DNA from: Flavobacterium rivuli WB 3.3-2 = DSM 21788
Lineage (GTDB): Bacteria > Bacteroidota > Bacteroidia > Flavobacteriales > Flavobacteriaceae
Assembly: GCF_000378485.1 (NCBI RefSeq)
Contig: NZ_KB899971.1
Coordinates: 186,001-250,000, forward strand
DNA: 64,000 bases
Direction: 5' to 3'
Position 1 is the stretch's first letter, and each line of letters starts with the position of its first letter. Below are positions 10,913 through 20,901 of the stretch, piece by piece. Under the pieces are notes generated by a model that saw only the letters and a program-made list of their open reading frames with translations, searched no databases and was not told the DNA's origin. The position numbers were made by a program, and so were the translations under genes.

Positions 10913-11345
10913 TATTGTTTCCGTTGCTGTCATTGTGAGGCACGAAGCAATCTAATTATTAAGGCAGGAAAACAGTAAGATTACAAAAAAGTTATCTGTA
11001 ACACACCCCTAACCCCTCTCAAGAGGGGAACAGCTTCACTCATACTTCTAAACCGCATTTTATTCAGTATATTTCAGTTGTTAGAGGATGGCTCCTTTCT
11101 CAAGATAGAAACAGCATCACTCAGAGTTTTAAGCCGCACAGTTATTCAGGATATTCCCGGCGTTGGGGGCGGGCTTCCCTCTTGAGAGGGGTTGGGGGTG
11201 TGTTACTGTAATAATGTTTTCCTATAAAAAATTTGAAATCACAGAATCCTGAGCTCCAAAGGAGCGGCATATATGCCGCTCCTTTGGAGCTCTATAGTAT
11301 ACGCATACCTGATTGCTATAAACATACCGCCCCGCCGGGACGCAC
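10913..11345 (-). repeat. Composite intergenic repeat, single inverted copy
   Basis: Read on the minus strand, this segment contains the same modules in the same order as one unit of the array at 50638-52303. They are a GCTCC/GGAGC palindrome, AACACACCCCCAACCCCTC with its AAGAGGGG palindrome, a second AAGAGGGG palindrome ending in GTGTGTTACAG, and the motif ATTGCTTCGTGCCTC followed by GTTTCCG-type sequence. It follows the sodA terminator. It contains no gene; the 60-codon ORF at 11273-11455 is repeat-derived. The remainder up to 11510 shows nothing. Confidence 0.75.
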
Positions 11346-11510
11346 ATATTGTAACCAAAGGCGCCATGACAACGCACGAAGAGCCATTATTATTCAGGCA
11401 GAAAAATAATAAGGCTTACAAATCAGGTGTGAGTGTCCTGCTTGTTCAGAAATAAACAGACTGCGTATTTATTATTTTAAGAGTGGAAATCGTGACAGAT
11501 GACTAAACAA

Positions 11511-13557: not shown

Positions 13558-13564
13558 GCAGTGT

Positions 13565-13715
13565 TTGGTAAGCAGTGTACAGTGTTCAGTCGCAGTATTC
13601 AGAAAGACACACCCTAACCCCTTTAAGAGGGGAACACTAATACCTTTAACCTCTCCTGCTTAGCATCAGAGTGTAGCTGGTTCTCCTCTCATATAAGGTT
13701 TGGGGTATGTTTTGT
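13565..13715. repeat. CAGT-rich stretch plus CCCCTYTYAAGAGGGG-type inverted repeat
   Basis: CAGT iterations at 13565-13600 are followed by a degenerate element: ACACCCTAACCCCTTTAAGAG at the left, then a spacer with TGTAGCTGGTTCTCCTCTC and a GTTTGGGGTATG right end. It is a decayed relative of the modules at 36527 and 50638. Confidence 0.55.
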
Positions 13716-13751
13716 AGAACATATAGTATTACAATTAAATTTCTCACTAAT

Positions 13752-13948
13752 ATAAAAGCAACCTGTCCGGGGCATTGGGCAGGTTGCTTTTTGTTTTGGC
13801 ATTAGTAAGTGTAGTAGTTTAGGATATTCTTTTTTCAGGGGGCCAAAAAAGGAAAAGTCGCCAATATGTTGTAGTAGGATATATTTTAATTTGCTTTAAG
13901 CATTGCTGCCCTGTGCAAATAGTGTTTCTTAATTACAAAGCAAAGATA
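13752..13948 (-). ncRNA. Putative small RNA, unit 1 of a three-copy tandem family
   Basis: On the minus strand, TATCTTTG (complement of 13941-13948) fits the -7 consensus. About 140 nt downstream, CAGGTTGCTTT pairs with AAAGCAACCTG (13755-13790, 11-bp perfect stem, loop with CCCCGG) and a TTTTAT tail follows. The predicted transcript is ~180 nt. The body shares the string TTTTTTGGCCCCC and the preceding TTGGCG block with unit 3. No ATG-started frame spans the conserved block. This is an RNA call from conservation among units and promoter/terminator logic only; no expression data exist. Confidence 0.55.
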
Positions 13949-14079
13949 GCGTGGCTTTACAGGCAATTTTTAATATTTAGATAACCGGAAGTTTTGTCCT
14001 GATGAATGGCATATAAGTTTAGGTGGGGTAATTCTTACGTGGCAATAGTCAGGCAAAATACATTGTACAAAATAATTGC

Positions 14080-14245
14080 GCAGCAAAGCAGCCTGCCTGG
14101 GGGCCAGCAGGCTGCTTATATAAACAGCATAAACTATTTACGGTAAATTTTTAGGGAACCAAAAAGGGGAATCGTTAATAACGGCAAACTTGATTTACGA
14201 AAATTCTACTTCTGTAAAAGCAATCGTTATTGTAAGGCAAATATA
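14080..14245 (-). ncRNA. Putative small RNA, unit 2 of a three-copy tandem family
   Basis: TATATTTG (complement of 14238-14245) is the -7 element. The hairpin AAGCAGCCTGC/GCAGGCTGCTT (14086-14117, 11-bp stem, C-rich loop) ends it, but the T tract is weak (TTTGCT). The conserved body is more diverged here: GATTCCCCTTTTTGGTTCCC corresponds to TTTCCCTTTTTTGGCCCCC of unit 3. Promoter-upstream sequence is shared with unit 3 at the same distance. Confidence 0.5.
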
Positions 14246-14261
14246 AGCAGGGTTGTAAGGG

Positions 14262-14298
14262 TTGTGTTAATTTTAAGCAAACTGTAACATTTGTTTAA
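14262..14298 (-). promoter_or_regulatory. Conserved upstream element of sRNA unit 2
   Basis: On the minus strand AAACAAATGTTACAGTTTG lies upstream of the unit 2 -7 element. Unit 3 has AAACAAATGTTACCGTTAG at the same distance (14678-14697). The GTT core fits the LytTR-site pattern fully in unit 3 and 8 of 9 positions in unit 2. Confidence 0.4.
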
Positions 14299-14444
14299 GT
14301 TTTTACAAATGCATTATATACATAAAACGGCAATTTTTTTAACTCCATAACATTATAATAACGAGCAATATATAAGTAAGGCCAAGTATATAGACAGTTT
14401 AAGGATGTAAGATTACAATTACTAATCCTTAAACAAAATTAAAC

Positions 14445-14645
14445 GTATAAAAAAAACCTGCCGTGGGGAGTGGCAGGTTAATTTTTTAGTTATGGCACCA
14501 GTTAAGGTAGTGTGGTATATGTCTTTTATGGAGTGGGGGCCAAAAAAGGGAAACTGCGCCAATAGTAGTAGTAAAGTATTTTTATTTTTTTGCCCGGGTG
14601 CGTAGTCCGGTTGCAAATGTTTTTATTATTAACACTACAAATGTA
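14445..14645 (-). ncRNA. Putative small RNA, unit 3 of a three-copy tandem family
   Basis: TACATTTG (complement of 14638-14645) is followed by a ~180-nt body and a canonical terminator: AACCTGCC/GGCAGGTT (14455-14479) with an ACTCCCCAC loop, then eight T residues on the minus strand. The central block TTGGCGCAGTTTCCC runs into TTTTTTGGCCCCC, as in unit 1. A 64-codon ATG frame (14422-14616) crosses it, but the equivalent frame is closed by stops just upstream in units 1 and 2, so an RNA is the better reading. Confidence 0.58.
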
Positions 14646-14677
14646 AACAGCATTGTAAGGTTATTTGCATTAATTAG

Positions 14678-14697
14678 CCTAACGGTAACATTTGTTT
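14678..14697 (-). promoter_or_regulatory. Conserved upstream element of sRNA unit 3, LytTR-like
   Basis: AAACAAATGTTACCGTTAG on the minus strand, with its ACCGTTAGG 9-mer beginning ~41 bp upstream of the -7 element. The 9-mer fits the published LytTR-binding pattern (W-M-M-GTT-N-R-K). Such short matches can arise by chance; conservation and spacing are the stronger evidence. Confidence 0.4.
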
Positions 14698-14868
14698 AGG
14701 CAGACTGCAGGTATGTATCGACAAACTACAACCATGTAGTTAAAGGTTTCCCTATTAATATTGGTATACAGGTATTTATTGCGAACTTTAAACAATTGTA
14801 GCAAATTTTGTTAATGTATGTATATACTTACAGTCAATCAACGCTCTATTTTGCATGTTTACCGATAA

Positions 14869-14963
14869 AAAAACCATTCGTCGAAGCCAAACAACCATTT
14901 ACCGTACTTTAACGCCACCTAAACGAAAAACACCGGCGCAGGTACTATATAAAAGTACATTTG
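14869..14963 (+). promoter_or_regulatory. Promoter region of receiver gene 1 with TTACCG repeats
   Basis: TACATTTG at 14956-14963 fits the -7 consensus and lies 43 nt before the ATG at 15006. Upstream, TTACCGAT (14869) and TTACCGTAC (14899) form direct repeats 30 bp apart; similar TTACCGT copies precede the second receiver gene at 19151 and 19175. The stretch 14700-14868 holds nothing else I can name. Confidence 0.45.
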
Positions 14964-15005
14964 TATATTAACAAACAACCATCAATTTTACACACCTTTA
15001 CCATA

Positions 15006-15419
15006 ATGCCAAAACCATTAAACATATTATTAATTGAAGATGATACCATAGAGGTAATGAAATTCAACAGAGTTTTAAAATCTATGGATATCGTGCACAA
15101 AATAATAGAAGCTAACAATGGCGAAGAGGCATTAGAGATACTTAAAGACAGGGATGTTATTCCTGACATTATAGTGCTCGACCTTAATATGCCAAAAATA
15201 AACGGTATAGAATTTTTAACGATCTTAAAAGAAGATGAAGTTTTAAAATACATACCGGCAATAATACTTACCACCAGTAACAACCATAAAGACGTTATGG
15301 AGTGTTACAGGCTGGGTATAGCGGGTTATATTATTAAACCGCTTAAGTATGATGAATATGTTTTCAGGATTAAAAAACTTATTGAATACTGGAGCACTAA
15401 CGAACTGATATCGCAATAA
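15006..15419 (+). CDS. Single-domain response regulator (Rcp1-like receiver) 1
   Basis: 137 residues from ATG 15006; an upstream in-frame ATG (14961) overlaps the -7 element and is rejected. Receiver hallmarks: acidic E11-D12-D13, phosphoacceptor D59 in VLDLNMPKINGIEFL, T89 in LTTSNNHKD and K111 in IIKPLKYDEY. There is no output domain, so it should act by protein contact or as a phosphate shuttle. It is very similar to the product of 19289-19702 and heads the H-NOX cluster, 18 nt from the H-NOX gene. Inferred role: phosphotransfer partner or sink for the kinase at 15981-17903. Confidence 0.9.
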   Translation: MPKPLNILLIEDDTIEVMKFNRVLKSMDIVHKIIEANNGEEALEILKDRDVIPDIIVLDLNMPKINGIEFLTILKEDEVLKYIPAIILTTSNNHKDVMECYRLGIAGYIIKPLKYDEYVFRIKKLIEYWSTNELISQ

Positions 15420-15437
15420 TATTAACAATTACACGCC

Positions 15438-15977
15438 ATGTACGGAATTATTAACGTAGCCATACAGGATTTTGCCGTAGAAAATTATGGCCCCGAAAAA
15501 TGGGAAGCTATAAAGGAACAAAGCGGTGTTGATGTTGATTATTCGCTTACAGACAGCCCTTATAACGATACCATAGCATACATTGTAGCAAAGGCAGCAT
15601 CTAAAGAGATGAATCTTGATATAGAAGATGTGCTTAACGACCTTGGCGAAAGCATAATACCTACCACAAACAAAAAATTTAACAGCTTTATAGATTCGCG
15701 CGGCGATACCCTTAGGGATTATTTAATAAATTTGCCTAACTTTCATAACAGGATTGCCATGATATACCCAGAGCTTACCCCGCCACAGTTTAGGGTAAGC
15801 CATTTAGGAAACAGCAGTATGCACTTGCATTATTTTTCTAAAACAAAAGGTATAACAGCATTTATAAAAGGCTATCTTAAAGGCCTGGTATCTATGTTTA
15901 ATGAAAGTGCAACCGTAGAGTTTTTGCAAAGCAGGGATAATGGTAATCCGCAGGAAATTTTTAAAATAAGCTGGTAG
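15438..15977 (+). CDS. H-NOX (heme-nitric oxide/oxygen binding) sensor protein
   Basis: 179 residues, a full-length stand-alone H-NOX domain. It starts MYGIINVAIQ as in the family. The proximal heme ligand is H103 (NLPNFHNRI), and PPQFRV follows. The conserved Y-x-S-x-R motif that holds the heme propionates reads Y132-F-S134-K-T136, so the arginine is replaced by threonine, with lysine at 137. Known relatives bind NO (or O2) through ferrous heme and change the activity of a neighbouring kinase or cyclase. Three bases separate it from the kinase gene, whose N-terminus is an H-NOX-associated domain. Heme binding is likely but may be altered by the substitution. Confidence 0.9.
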   Translation: MYGIINVAIQDFAVENYGPEKWEAIKEQSGVDVDYSLTDSPYNDTIAYIVAKAASKEMNLDIEDVLNDLGESIIPTTNKKFNSFIDSRGDTLRDYLINLPNFHNRIAMIYPELTPPQFRVSHLGNSSMHLHYFSKTKGITAFIKGYLKGLVSMFNESATVEFLQSRDNGNPQEIFKISW

Positions 15978-15980
15978 TTT

Positions 15981-17903
15981 ATGAGCAATTTTACGTTTAG
16001 TTTTAACGAGGAAAATTTTAGCCAGATATTTCCATTTTACATATTACTGGATAATACCTTAACTATACAATCTCAGGGAAAAAGCCTGTCTAAATTTCAT
16101 TCAAAATTACTGCCGGGCGCAAAACTTGACGATCATTTTAGAGTTAAGCGGCCGTATATAGACGAGTTTACTGCCGATTGTGTGGTAGAAATACTAAACC
16201 AGCTTACCATTTTAGAGTGCAATACCCAGCCCGATGTGGTGCTGCGCGGGCAGTTTGAAATCATGGATGGCAAATTTTTATTTGTAGGTTCGCCGTGGCT
16301 GTCATCTGTAGAAGAGGTTAAGCAGCGTAACCTCAACATTTTTGATTTTGCCAACTACGATCCCCAACTCGATTTATTGCAAATACTACGCAAGCAGGAA
16401 CTTACAACCCTGGAGTTTAAAGAGCAGCTAAAAATAAATACCGAACAAAAAGAAGAGTTAAAGCGCGACCGCGAAGAGCTTAACAGGCTGTCGCTCGTGG
16501 CGAGCAATAACGATAATGCCATTATATTTACCCACCCCAATGCCGAGATCTTTTGGTGCAATGATGCTTATGTAAAGCTTACCGGCTTTACTATAGAGGA
16601 AATTATTGGCAAAACTCCGGTAGAGATAGGCCGCACCCACCTTACCGATGATGAGGCACTTACCGAAATGGTGGGCCATTTTTACAAAGGCGAATCGTTT
16701 GACGTTGAGATTGCCCATGGTAAAAAAGACGGTAGCTACTTCTGGACGCGGGCACAAGGACAGCCTATTTATGACGAAAATGGAAAAGTAGTACAATACT
16801 TTGCCATGATACAGGACATGACCGATGAGAAAGAGCGTGAAGAACAGCTTGTTATCCTGTCGCTTATTGCCCAGAAAAACATGAATGCCGTTATTATTTG
16901 CAATAGTGATGGCACAACAGAGTGGGTAAACCCAAGCCTTAACCTGCTTACCGGCTACAGCAATAAAGAACTTATTGGCATTAACCCATCTACGCTTTTA
17001 AGCGGGCCCGATACCAATCCAGAAACATTAGCCTATGTTTATGACCAGCTAAGCAAGGGAGAACCCTTTAATTGCGAGATTGTTAACTACCATAAATCGG
17101 GCAGGAAATACTGGATACGCGTGCAGGGCCAGGGGCTTTATAATGCCAATGGCGAGCTTACCCGCTTTTTTGCCATAGAAGAAGATATTACCAATAAAAA
17201 ATCGCTTGAGGAACAAAAGGAAGAACTTTTGCGAAGCCTTGAAAAAAGTAACCGCGAGCTCGAAGATTATGCCCAGATAGTATCGCACGACCTTAAGTCG
17301 CCGCTGCGAAGCATAAACTCGCTTATTGCCTGGATAAAAGAAGAGAATGAGGGCAACCTTGCAGAATCTACACTGGAGTATTTTGGCATGATAGACAATA
17401 AGCTCGAAAAAATGGAACACCTTATACAGGGTGTACTTACCTATTCTAAAATAGACAAGACCGATATTGCTAAAGAAAATGTTGACACTCACGAAATTAT
17501 AAGCAACATTATTAGCATGATACACATACCGGCTAACATACTTGTATCTATAAACGGGCCACTGCCGGTAATACGTGCAGACCGTTTCAGGACGCAGCAG
17601 TTATTCCAGAATCTTATAAGCAATGCCGTTGCCTATATAGACAAGACAGAAGGTTATGTAGAGGTAGGCGCAAAAGAGACAGACGATGCCGTAACCTTTT
17701 ATGTTAGCGATAACGGAATGGGCATTGCAAAAGAAAATCACGAAAAAGTTTTTAAGATTTTCCAGTCGCTTGCCAAAAACGAAAAATCTACCGGATTAGG
17801 GCTTTCGATAGTTAAAAAAATCATCGAAAATTACAAAGGAAAGATATGGATTGAGAGTGAAAAAGGGAAAGGAACAACTTTTTACGTCGAAATACCAAAA
17901 TAA
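15981..17903 (+). CDS. HNOBA-PAS-PAS sensor histidine kinase
   Basis: 640 residues, soluble (no membrane segment). Residues 1-135 resemble the heme-NO-binding-associated (HNOBA) domain found next to H-NOX in guanylate cyclases. A coiled coil (~137-170) follows, then PAS domains at ~170-285 (NDAYVKLTGFT) and ~292-405 (NPSLNLLTGYS), each with a PAC-type tail. The phosphoacceptor is H436 in VSHDLKSPLRS, and the ATPase carries N (NLISNAV), G1 (DNGMGIA) and G2 (GLGLSIV) boxes. It is presumably controlled by the H-NOX protein encoded three bases upstream and feeds the Hpt and receiver proteins of the cluster. No receiver domain is fused. Confidence 0.9.
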   Translation: MSNFTFSFNEENFSQIFPFYILLDNTLTIQSQGKSLSKFHSKLLPGAKLDDHFRVKRPYIDEFTADCVVEILNQLTILECNTQPDVVLRGQFEIMDGKFLFVGSPWLSSVEEVKQRNLNIFDFANYDPQLDLLQILRKQELTTLEFKEQLKINTEQKEELKRDREELNRLSLVASNNDNAIIFTHPNAEIFWCNDAYVKLTGFTIEEIIGKTPVEIGRTHLTDDEALTEMVGHFYKGESFDVEIAHGKKDGSYFWTRAQGQPIYDENGKVVQYFAMIQDMTDEKEREEQLVILSLIAQKNMNAVIICNSDGTTEWVNPSLNLLTGYSNKELIGINPSTLLSGPDTNPETLAYVYDQLSKGEPFNCEIVNYHKSGRKYWIRVQGQGLYNANGELTRFFAIEEDITNKKSLEEQKEELLRSLEKSNRELEDYAQIVSHDLKSPLRSINSLIAWIKEENEGNLAESTLEYFGMIDNKLEKMEHLIQGVLTYSKIDKTDIAKENVDTHEIISNIISMIHIPANILVSINGPLPVIRADRFRTQQLFQNLISNAVAYIDKTEGYVEVGAKETDDAVTFYVSDNGMGIAKENHEKVFKIFQSLAKNEKSTGLGLSIVKKIIENYKGKIWIESEKGKGTTFYVEIPK

Positions 17904-17979: not shown

Positions 17980-18297
17980 ATGGAAGAGCCTAATCTTAAT
18001 TACATTAATGAGCTTGCCGGAGATGATAACGATTTTCGTGCAGTGCTAATTGGCGTTATAAAAAACGAGCTGCCTGCAGAAATTAATGAGTACCAGGATA
18101 ACCTTGCTGCTCAGAATTTTAACGCAGCCGCTGATAACGTGCATAAGTTAAAACACAAAATTAGCGTTATGGGTATGGAGCAAAGTTATTATCTTGCAGA
18201 AAAGTTTGAGAATAACCTAAAAGAACGCTCTACACAATTACAGGCCGAGTTTGGCCAGCTGCTTATGGCCATGCAGGGCTTTGCGGCGTCATTATAA
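17980..18297 (+). CDS. Stand-alone histidine phosphotransfer (Hpt) protein
   Basis: 105 residues, all-helical. The phosphorylatable histidine is probably H55 in NVHKLKHKISVMGM, matching the HKLKG-type Hpt signature with His replacing the usual Gly after KLK. Role: relay of phosphate between kinase/receiver and a second receiver. It lies 76 nt after the kinase gene and 13 nt before the LytTR regulator gene, so it is probably in the same transcript. Its presence implies a multistep relay even though no hybrid kinase is encoded here; a single-domain receiver could supply the middle step. Confidence 0.85.
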   Translation: MEEPNLNYINELAGDDNDFRAVLIGVIKNELPAEINEYQDNLAAQNFNAAADNVHKLKHKISVMGMEQSYYLAEKFENNLKERSTQLQAEFGQLLMAMQGFAASL

Positions 18298-18310
18298 ACC
18301 CATTAAGGAT

Positions 18311-19072
18311 ATGAATTGTATTATAATTGATGATGAAGCGATGGCACGGGCAATTATTACCCAAATGATATCTAAAGACCCGGAGCTAAAACTGGCACAG
18401 GAATTTAGCAATGCAATACCAGCCATAAAATTTTTAAATCAGGACAGTGCAGGCACCGACCTGATTTTTCTTGATATACACATGCCCGATTTTACAGGCT
18501 TTGATTTTATTCAAACCATAAAAAACCCTCCGGCAGTTATACTTATAACATCCGATAAAAATTTTGCAACCGATGCCTTTGAGTACGATTGTATTGTTGA
18601 TTATATTGTAAAACCCATTACCGAAGACCGTTTTTTAAGGGCTATACGAAAAGCAAAGGCACATCGCGTGCCAGAGCCTGCCGGTGCTGCAACAGCTTCT
18701 GTTGCCGCTGTACCTGCACCCGCTGCCGCACCGGTGCCCCAGGACCAGCCTAAAGATACCGCTACAGAGTTTTATGTAAACATAGACCGAAGGCTTATTA
18801 AAATAGAAATAGCATCTATAAATGTGGTAGAGGCTAAAGGCGACTACATACATATTAAAACAGAACAAAAAAACTACATAGTACACTCTACCCTAAAAAA
18901 GATAGAAGAAAAACTACCGGACACTCTCTTTTTAAAAGTACACCGCACCTATATTATTAATACCAAAAAAATTATAGATATAGAAGACAATAGTGTGCTT
19001 ATAGGTAAAGATGTTATACCGGTAAGCCGTGCCAACAGGCCAGAGCTTATAAAACGTTTAAACATGCTGTAA
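18311..19072 (+). CDS. LytTR-family response regulator
   Basis: 253 residues from ATG 18311; an upstream in-frame start (18251) lies inside the Hpt gene. Receiver domain residues 1-120: D7-D8, phosphoacceptor D55 (FLDIHMPDFTG), S81 and K101 (VKPITED). Residues 121-150 form an unusual Ala/Pro-rich linker (PAPAAAPVPQD). Residues ~155-250 are a LytTR DNA-binding domain (INVVEAKGDYIHIKT, HRTYIINTKKI, VPVSRANR). This is the only DNA-binding output of the cluster, so it should convert the NO signal into transcription. LytTR-like sites occur near 14678 and 19175. Confidence 0.9.
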   Translation: MNCIIIDDEAMARAIITQMISKDPELKLAQEFSNAIPAIKFLNQDSAGTDLIFLDIHMPDFTGFDFIQTIKNPPAVILITSDKNFATDAFEYDCIVDYIVKPITEDRFLRAIRKAKAHRVPEPAGAATASVAAVPAPAAAPVPQDQPKDTATEFYVNIDRRLIKIEIASINVVEAKGDYIHIKTEQKNYIVHSTLKKIEEKLPDTLFLKVHRTYIINTKKIIDIEDNSVLIGKDVIPVSRANRPELIKRLNML

Positions 19073-20860: not shown

Positions 20861-20901
20861 TGTTGGCCCTACTCTATTATCGGATTTTCGGATACTCCGT
20901 T
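20861..20901 (-). promoter_or_regulatory. Shared 5'-leader element of DUF805 gene 2
   Basis: Minus strand: CGGAG, CCGAAAATCCG, AGAGTAGGGCCAAC, then A-rich sequence to the ATG 16 nt away. Compare 20268-20309. Base changes between copies fall mostly in the loop of the possible CGGA/TCCG stem. Confidence 0.5.

Follow-up and report, generated by a model that had tools for sequence, protein, structure and literature searches.

The window, i.e., the whole stretch of 64,000 nucleotides of Flavobacterium rivuli DNA that was analyzed, contains an operon for a NO-sensing phosphorelay, composed of genes for a CheY-like response regulator, an H-NOX sensor, a histidine kinase, a Hpt protein, and a LytTR response regulator (Table 1), and, ahead of it, a gene-free stretch of 1448 bp (13558–15005), in agreement with the 1.4 kb of the first-pass annotation. 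This stretch holds an array of three modules on the minus strand (units 1–3, family A), whose positions were confirmed by a check of the sequence. The FHNR region is kept in the seven H-NOX proteins that were aligned, while YxSxR, a motif of H-NOX proteins, is kept in part. Of 31 genomes, 10, among them that of the window (labelled G000), carry an orthologue of the LytTR regulator at E 1e-50; the match in G379 contains two stops (C29:14555–15112), and G177 carries a second orthologue (C17:17599–18303). The operon of G172 additionally encodes a FIST protein, presumably a NO sensor of the NosP type, and a second kinase, both ahead of Hpt, and the ORF maps suggest that the operons of G460, G555, G300, and G379 resemble it in these two genes.

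Table 1. Features of the array and of the phosphorelay operon in the window; bracketed distances are positions of upstream sites.
Feature	Position	Strand	Basis or remark
Unit 1, predicted sRNA	13750..13934	-	predicted start (by the -7 element) and end (by the hairpin); paralogue U4
Unit 1 -7 element TATCTTTG	13941..13948	-	sequence check
Unit 1 motif CCTTTTTTGGCCCCC, C-rich loop on U/A stem, complementary to RNA B	13838..13852	-	
Unit 1 terminal hairpin with C-rich loop, possibly bidirectional	13754..13791	-	
Unit 1 weak sites TGCCATTCATCAG (-63) and TTCCGGTTATCTA (-42), 21 bp apart	13978..14011	-	matrix scores 6.1 and 2.3
Unit 2, diverged predicted sRNA	14083..14231	-	
Unit 2 -7 element TATATTTG	14238..14245	-	
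Unit 2 motif CCCTTTTTGGTTCCC	14154..14168	-	
Unit 2 terminal hairpin, C-rich loop, poor U tail	14086..14117	-	
Unit 3, predicted sRNA	14449..14631	-	
Unit 3 -7 element TACATTTG	14638..14645	-	
Unit 3 motif CCTTTTTTGGCCCCC	14535..14549	-	
Unit 3 terminator, stem AACCTGCC/GGCAGGTT, C-rich loop, U8	14449..14479	-	
Unit 3 direct repeats TGTAGTTTGTCGA (-85) and TGCAGTCTGCCTA (-64), weak TACCGTTAGGCTA (-42)	14675..14730	-	matrix
Phosphorelay operon, upstream direct repeats ACCATTCGTCGAA and ACCATTTACCGTA at a distance of 21 bp	14873..14906	+	by eye
Phosphorelay operon -7-like element TACATTTG	14956..14963	+	
CheY-like response regulator	15006..15419	+	Pfam Response_reg
H-NOX (HNOB) haem NO sensor	15438..15977	+	Pfam HNOB; FHNR haem-ligand region conserved
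HNOBA/PAS histidine kinase	15981..17903	+	Pfam HNOBA/PAS/HisKA/HATPase
Hpt phosphotransfer protein	17980..18297	+	Pfam Hpt
LytTR response regulator, proposed to activate or repress the array	18308..19072	+	Pfam Response_reg and LytTR; orthologues

The units of family A follow one plan, namely a TAnnTTTG element, which is the -7 consensus of Bacteroidetes, a body of about 150–185 nt, and a terminal hairpin with a C-rich loop, and CCYTTTTTGGNNCCC is common to the modules of the array. The minus-strand -7 elements that the first-pass annotation had placed at 13948, 14245, and 14645 are present as claimed (TATCTTTG, TATATTTG, and TACATTTG), and so is the likeness of units 1 and 3 with unit 2 as a diverged relative: CCTTTTTTGGCCCCC and TATTGGCG occur in units 1 and 3, unit 2 has CCCTTTTTGGTTCCC, an ungapped alignment of units 1 and 3 extends over 49 nt with 71% identity, and unit 2 is the outlier among the three. 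The hairpins with C-rich loops claimed for every unit were found in all of them, and the terminator claimed for unit 3 is followed by U8, while the tail amounts to only four U residues in unit 1 and is poor in unit 2. A simple scan (loops ≤8) found the hairpins of units 1 and 3 to be terminator-like on the plus strand only, and a finder allowing longer loops detected the same two on the minus strand plus two on the plus strand; the unit hairpins may act in both directions. At the sequence level, the array thus presents what defines sibling sRNAs, i.e., several related genes with separate promoters and terminators, the terminator and the repeats of unit 2 being weak.

In the 4.49-Mb genome, six copies of the motif YYYTTTTTGGNNCCC were found, versus none for a reversed-pattern control, and three of them are those of units 1–3. 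A further one (C6:266800) belongs to U4, a paralogue with promoter and hairpin located 66 kb away (C6:266667–266893; 69% over 227 nt, E 1e-13 in BLASTN), whose neighbours, named by eye, are a HMG-CoA-synthase-like gene and, on the other side, genes of the short-chain-dehydrogenase side. The copy at C6:172268 is the antisense strand of the gene of another RNA, here called RNA B, and the copy at C7:45213, inside an ORF, is probably a chance match. In comparison with shuffled sequences, the fold energies of units 1, 2, 3, and U4 have z-scores of -3.0, -4.3, -2.7, and -2.4, respectively, and the consensus fold of the four shows nearly no covariation (term -0.06; changes on both sides in 3 of 13 pairs). 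Conserved structure of the units is therefore not borne out by the four-unit fold. The earlier proposal of sibling sRNAs beside a NO-signalling cluster is well supported by comparison, units built on the same plan occupying the corresponding position in a further six genomes. A coding reading was rejected, the longest ORFs covering 8–57 aa over 19 predicted A RNAs and being unequal among units 1, 2, 3, and U4 (17, 17, 57, and 37 aa). A wide spread of the exact motif was likewise discarded, as 30 of 61 genus genomes were matched with a similar number of matches for the reversed control, and 29 motif loci of other genomes (L018–L046) look protein-coding by eye. A scan of a contig collection for TTGGCG plus the motif returned 22 loci with titles from other groups, close relatives being possibly absent from that collection, and a BLASTN search with unit 3 in 149 genomes of the family gave short partial matches in two others.

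RNA B emerged from weak matches of a covariance model of units 1–3 and U4 (U1–U4), which reached E ≤1 in 17 of 28 genomes; among the 12 loci inspected, some are RNA B in antisense, the sequence being sensible in the opposite orientation, and the matches L114, L116, L131, and L136 were set aside as terminators or other sequence by their appearance. This RNA measures about 85 nt, is in most cases a neighbour of sodA, and exposes GGGG(G)C between two hairpins that covary; its parts are a hairpin AAAAUAGC...GGUAUUUU, the exposed UGGGGGC, and a terminator GGGAAAAC...GUUUUCCC-U6. A covariance model built from 19 copies found RNA B at E ≤1e-4, with rough E-values and inspection of a minority of the matches, in 319 of 398 genomes of the genus and in 115 of 199 of the family, the latter from 114 of 198 genera; this is the larger part of the genus sample and more than half of the family sample. 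There are one to nine copies per genome, and, among the matches listed, neighbouring copies are often about 180–330 nt apart. At the inspected loci, purF and/or sodA lie within 1.5 kb in 22 of 22 cases in the genus (L206–L227) and sodA in seven of seven in the family (L228–L234), RNA B being encoded on the same strand as purF or running convergently to sodA. Of the loci in the genome of the window, C6:172233–172324 (L158) follows purF and C4:110734–110822 (L156) is beside neither gene; the window itself contains no RNA B (best match 11.5 bits, E 1.8).

The pairing of RNA B is kept in 98.7% of cells over 54 distinct sequences, versus 53–63% in slid controls, and 15 pairs changed on both sides versus 5.2 ± 1.3 after shuffling (0 of 500 shuffles), in an alignment fitted to the model, which favours a high pairing result. 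RNAalifold alone predicted the inner helix and the terminator, and not the outer helix. A strict pattern of RNA B was found in eight of 199 genomes and in none of G177, G184, and G167; a lack of RNA B in these three was rejected in view of weak covariance-model matches there (E 3e-6, 1e-7, and 9e-5). Judged by its sequences, RNA B appears to be a sRNA family of Flavobacteriaceae with tandem copies, support from covariation, and a conserved G-rich seed.

Repeats of 9 bp that are candidate LytTR operators precede part of the promoters of the array and that of the operon (Table 1). With a site matrix trained on RNA B promoters only, the best two sites (and the best single site) gave p values of 0.002 (0.0125) for unit 1, 0.0005 (0.0015) for unit 3, 0.0055 (0.0175) for U4, 0.0005 (0.0005) for the unit of G288, and 0.19 (0.36) for unit 2, so that unit 2 has no significant upstream sites. 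The best two sites are 21 bp apart only in unit 3 and in the G288 unit (-85 and -64, with a weak third site at -42); those of unit 1 (-114 and -63) and U4 (-64 and -123) are out of phase, and the in-phase partner sites score low (2.3 in unit 1, -1.4 in U4). The published direct repeats of LytTR regulators are mostly 12 bp apart, in some cases 11 or 13, and lie upstream of promoters, also in an autoregulatory role (PMC6193735). The 21-bp period of the repeats found here would fit this spacing, binding being putative: a separation of 11–13 bp is present in unit 3, in the units of G288, G172, G555, and G300, and at the operon promoter (by eye), weak in unit 1 and U4, and absent from unit 2.

A strict operator pattern (≤3 mismatches) was found at nine places in 15 genomes, versus one for the reversed pattern used as a control. 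Six of the nine are at the H-NOX loci of G172, G300, G555, and G379, and G177 and G257 have one each elsewhere; there are none in the genome of the window or in G288. The ninth, an operator-like repeat pair in G300 (L195, C1:2137661–2137692), precedes genes for a PAS histidine kinase and a response regulator, which the LytTR protein may therefore control as well. Five genomes that carry RNA B have no LytTR orthologue at E 1e-50 (G203, G257, G181, G361, and G479) and, since the orthologue is missing there, another factor must use the sites of RNA B in them.

In the search of 28 genomes with the U1–U4 covariance model, one clear homologue of family A was found beyond the genome of the window, in G288 (46.6 bits, E 5e-5), where the unit is divergent from, and upstream of, the same CheY–HNOB–kinase–Hpt–LytTR operon and lies beside a dinB-like gene (by eye) rather than metB. 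G288 is the closest relative by MetB; beside its metB there is no array, which is found at its H-NOX locus. Altogether, six relatives have an array at the same place with respect to the operon, i.e., G288 and also G172, G460, G555, G300, and G379, in which a gap of 0.79–1.64 kb with no ORFs of at least 80 aa occupies the position of the array (the gap of G460 also shows a short ORF by eye). The units in these gaps, encoded on the strand that diverges from the operon, have repeats like CCATTCGTCTACA...CCATTCGTCGAA, 21 bp apart, followed by a -7 element such as GATATTTG, and, on the same strand, a C-run in most of them and a strong hairpin. G177, G184, and G167 have just 98–154 bp before the operon, with no array seen.

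By eye, 3, 1, 5, 1, 3, 4, and 1 units were counted in G000, G288, G172, G460, G555, G300, and G379, respectively. Automatic calling, in which a unit consists of two matrix matches 19–23 bp apart upstream of nAnnTTTG, gave 1, 1, 2, 0, 3, 3 (one of them a duplicate), and 0 on the array strand in the same order, with shuffled means of at most 0.003, and on the opposite strand one unit in G379 and none in the other six genomes. Thus, it recovered only unit 3 of those in the window and none in G460 or G379. Terminators on the array strand number 2, 1, 4, 2, 2, 3, and 2 (0.05–0.30 after shuffling), and those on the opposite strand 2, 1, 1, 1, 0, 0, and 1.

Family A can be read as a partial antisense of RNA B, as seen in CCCUUUUUUGGCCCCC versus GGGGGCCAAAAAAGGG and ACUAAUGC versus GCAUUAGU. 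For U1–U4 and the G288 unit, the duplexes with RNA B of the same genome have energies of -42.6 to -54.0, versus shuffled means of -24.5 to -28.2 (z from -3.8 to -8.9; 0 of 200 shuffles as good). Over all 19 units, at most two of 200 shuffles were as good in 11, which occur in six of the seven genomes (G460 having none), and in the other eight the duplex energy was no better than that of shuffles; the longest exact match exceeded all 100 shuffles in seven units, and in the window only in unit 1. When folding was allowed for, the gains of unit 1 (-22.4) and U4 (-22.2) surpassed the minima of 40 shuffles (-18.0 and -17.6), while that of unit 3 (-14.9, versus a minimum of -17.3) was not significant; gains computed without a shuffle control were -30.2 for G172_5, -15.5 for G288, and -4.1 for G300_4. 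C-runs of at least four residues, predicted to be unpaired with values of 0.65–1.0, are found in 16 of the 19 units, and the G-run of RNA B is unpaired at 0.75–0.93 in five of the eight copies computed and at 0.35–0.63 in those of G300, G555, and G172. When both strands of the G172 gap were compared with RNA B, the best energy was -39.3 on the array strand and -31.5 on the other. Furthermore, units 1, 3, and U4, and not unit 2, pair better with RNA B of G000 and G288 than with the other B RNAs computed, a preference that co-variation of A and B or, equally, descent from an inverted copy of B would explain. The array may titrate RNA B, as the duplex energies of these 11 units suggest; against this, what A and B have in common may have been left over from an inverted copy.

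These observations comprise the anatomy, recurrence, and synteny of the array, RNA B as a covarying RNA family, and A–B complementarity beyond that of shuffles for part of the units. The explanation proposed for them is that the three modules are sibling non-coding sRNA genes under the adjacent NO-sensing phosphorelay, which pair with partners including RNA B. H-NOX would sense NO and control the kinase, from which phosphate would pass via Hpt to the LytTR response regulator. This regulator is predicted to bind the direct repeats about 21 bp apart upstream of the promoters of family A and of its own operon, and its binding would set the transcription of family A, with a presumed direction of the NO effect. 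The A RNAs would expose their C-rich loops and act by base pairing, so that they may bind and then titrate or destabilize RNA B, by which NO would change the activity of RNA B. Taken as a whole, this explanation is held with a confidence just above even, lowered by the poor phasing of the repeats in unit 1 and U4 and by the lack of strict sites in the genome of the window. That the A units are sRNA genes controlled by this phosphorelay, with the expression predicted for them, is probable; that RNA B is their functional partner, pairing with them in the cell, stands slightly short of even. The complementarity of the two families suggests two opposing RNAs in a gas-responsive circuit. The more specific idea that a gas-sensing phosphorelay controls an expandable antisense-like array, evolved to bind, in trans and through complementary loops, a family-wide sRNA encoded next to sodA, with promoters that bear LytTR-type repeats on both sides, thus forming a NO-driven switch of RNA against RNA, is tentative and somewhat doubtful.

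Other explanations have been weighed against these data. The units may be sRNAs that are controlled by the phosphorelay and act on G-rich sites of mRNAs via their C-rich loops, like RoxS/RsaE, having inherited from an antisense copy of B a complementarity to RNA B that they do not use. The eight units that keep C-runs or the unit plan with no excess complementarity to RNA B would suit such a role, and RoxS is itself rich in C and is induced by NO via a two-component system (PMC4409812). However, for every unit of the window, for U4, and for that of G288, none of 200 shuffles paired as well with RNA B, and this alternative is regarded as unlikely while retaining real weight. The regulator, in turn, may be other than the adjacent LytTR protein, in which case the array would be real and transcribed and the shared repeats would serve another factor that controls A and B alike. 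Such repeats are carried by B promoters in genomes with no LytTR orthologue, and units 1 and 2 of the window have poor ones, but in the genomes covered no array was met away from this operon, which is itself preceded by the same sites, and a different regulator is considered quite improbable.

The possibility that the modules are decaying repeats, e.g., inverted copies of RNA B whose hairpins serve as terminators of metB, and not functional sRNA genes, would accommodate the inverse orientation in which A and B are related, the divergence of unit 2, the exact motif copy at C6:172268 on the antisense strand of the B gene, and the terminator-like character of the unit hairpins on the plus strand as well. 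Nevertheless, seven genomes agree in promoter, repeats, hairpin, and position, five of them with many more automatic unit calls than their shuffles, and decay is judged very improbable. If the modules are sibling sRNAs governed by the phosphorelay, as preferred here, the flavobacterial H-NOX sensor gains a concrete candidate output in the form of a sRNA array and, if A also pairs with B in vivo, these siblings would have evolved to counteract a conserved sRNA.

In a covariance-model search, neither the A units nor RNA B were matched by a family of Rfam 15 at its gathering score; the matches below threshold that overlap B loci include sraA (28.7 of 56 bits) and BTnc231 (25.7 of 80.4 bits). Membership of the array in Flavo-1 (RF01705), suggested in the first-pass annotation, found no support: Flavo-1 has no match in the window at its gathering score (42 bits), is not among the 17 matches at E ≤10 in 13560–14960, from which RsaE is also absent, and does not match at the positions of RNA B. 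Flavo-1 is, like RNA B, a RNA of Bacteroidetes, and it lies near sodA within about 1 kb of RNA B at two loci of other genus genomes (L216:2558–2647, minus strand, 78.7 bits; L217:400–488, plus strand, 69.9 bits). In F. psychrophilum, 85 new RNAs have been described, including Rfp18, a genus-wide structured sRNA (PMC9723704). RNA B may be one of the Rfp RNAs. A search of the main texts of open-access papers on flavobacterial and Bacteroidetes sRNAs, on H-NOX, NosP, and LytTR proteins, and on sibling sRNAs showed no account of this array among the papers listed.

The proposed circuit resembles that of Vibrio, in which H-NOX or NosP, a kinase, LuxU, and LuxO lead to the Qrr sRNAs (PMC6769237, PMC4211561), so that a NO sensor, a kinase, a Hpt protein, a response regulator, and several sibling sRNAs are found in both. 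However, the regulator is LuxO there and LytTR here, the array is here in tandem beside the sensor operon, and a RNA partner is proposed here, whereas the partner described there is a mRNA of luxR type; the A units have no Rfam match to Qrr at threshold, and the resemblance is in the circuit only. C-rich regions and transcription set by a two-component system responding to NO are shared with RoxS/RsaE (PMC4409812), known as RoxS in Bacillus, which is a single sRNA of Firmicutes pairing near Shine-Dalgarno sequences and to which the units have no Rfam match. Both likenesses would concern a working principle and not homology of the RNAs. The streptococcal csRNAs are likewise a set of siblings, both distal and tandem, governed by a single response regulator, CiaR (PMC4507080, PMC4211561); they belong to another phylum and regulator and were compared for homology via Rfam only.

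Elsewhere in the window, overlapping ORFs on both strands at 11142–11455 share the peptides GIYAAPLEL and MPLLWSS, which suggests that an inverted-repeat element lies on the 3' side of sodA. In addition, a DUF805b RNA motif (RF02914, 37.6 bits) is located at 20866–20900 on the minus strand, upstream of a DUF805-like gene, three such genes lying in a row.
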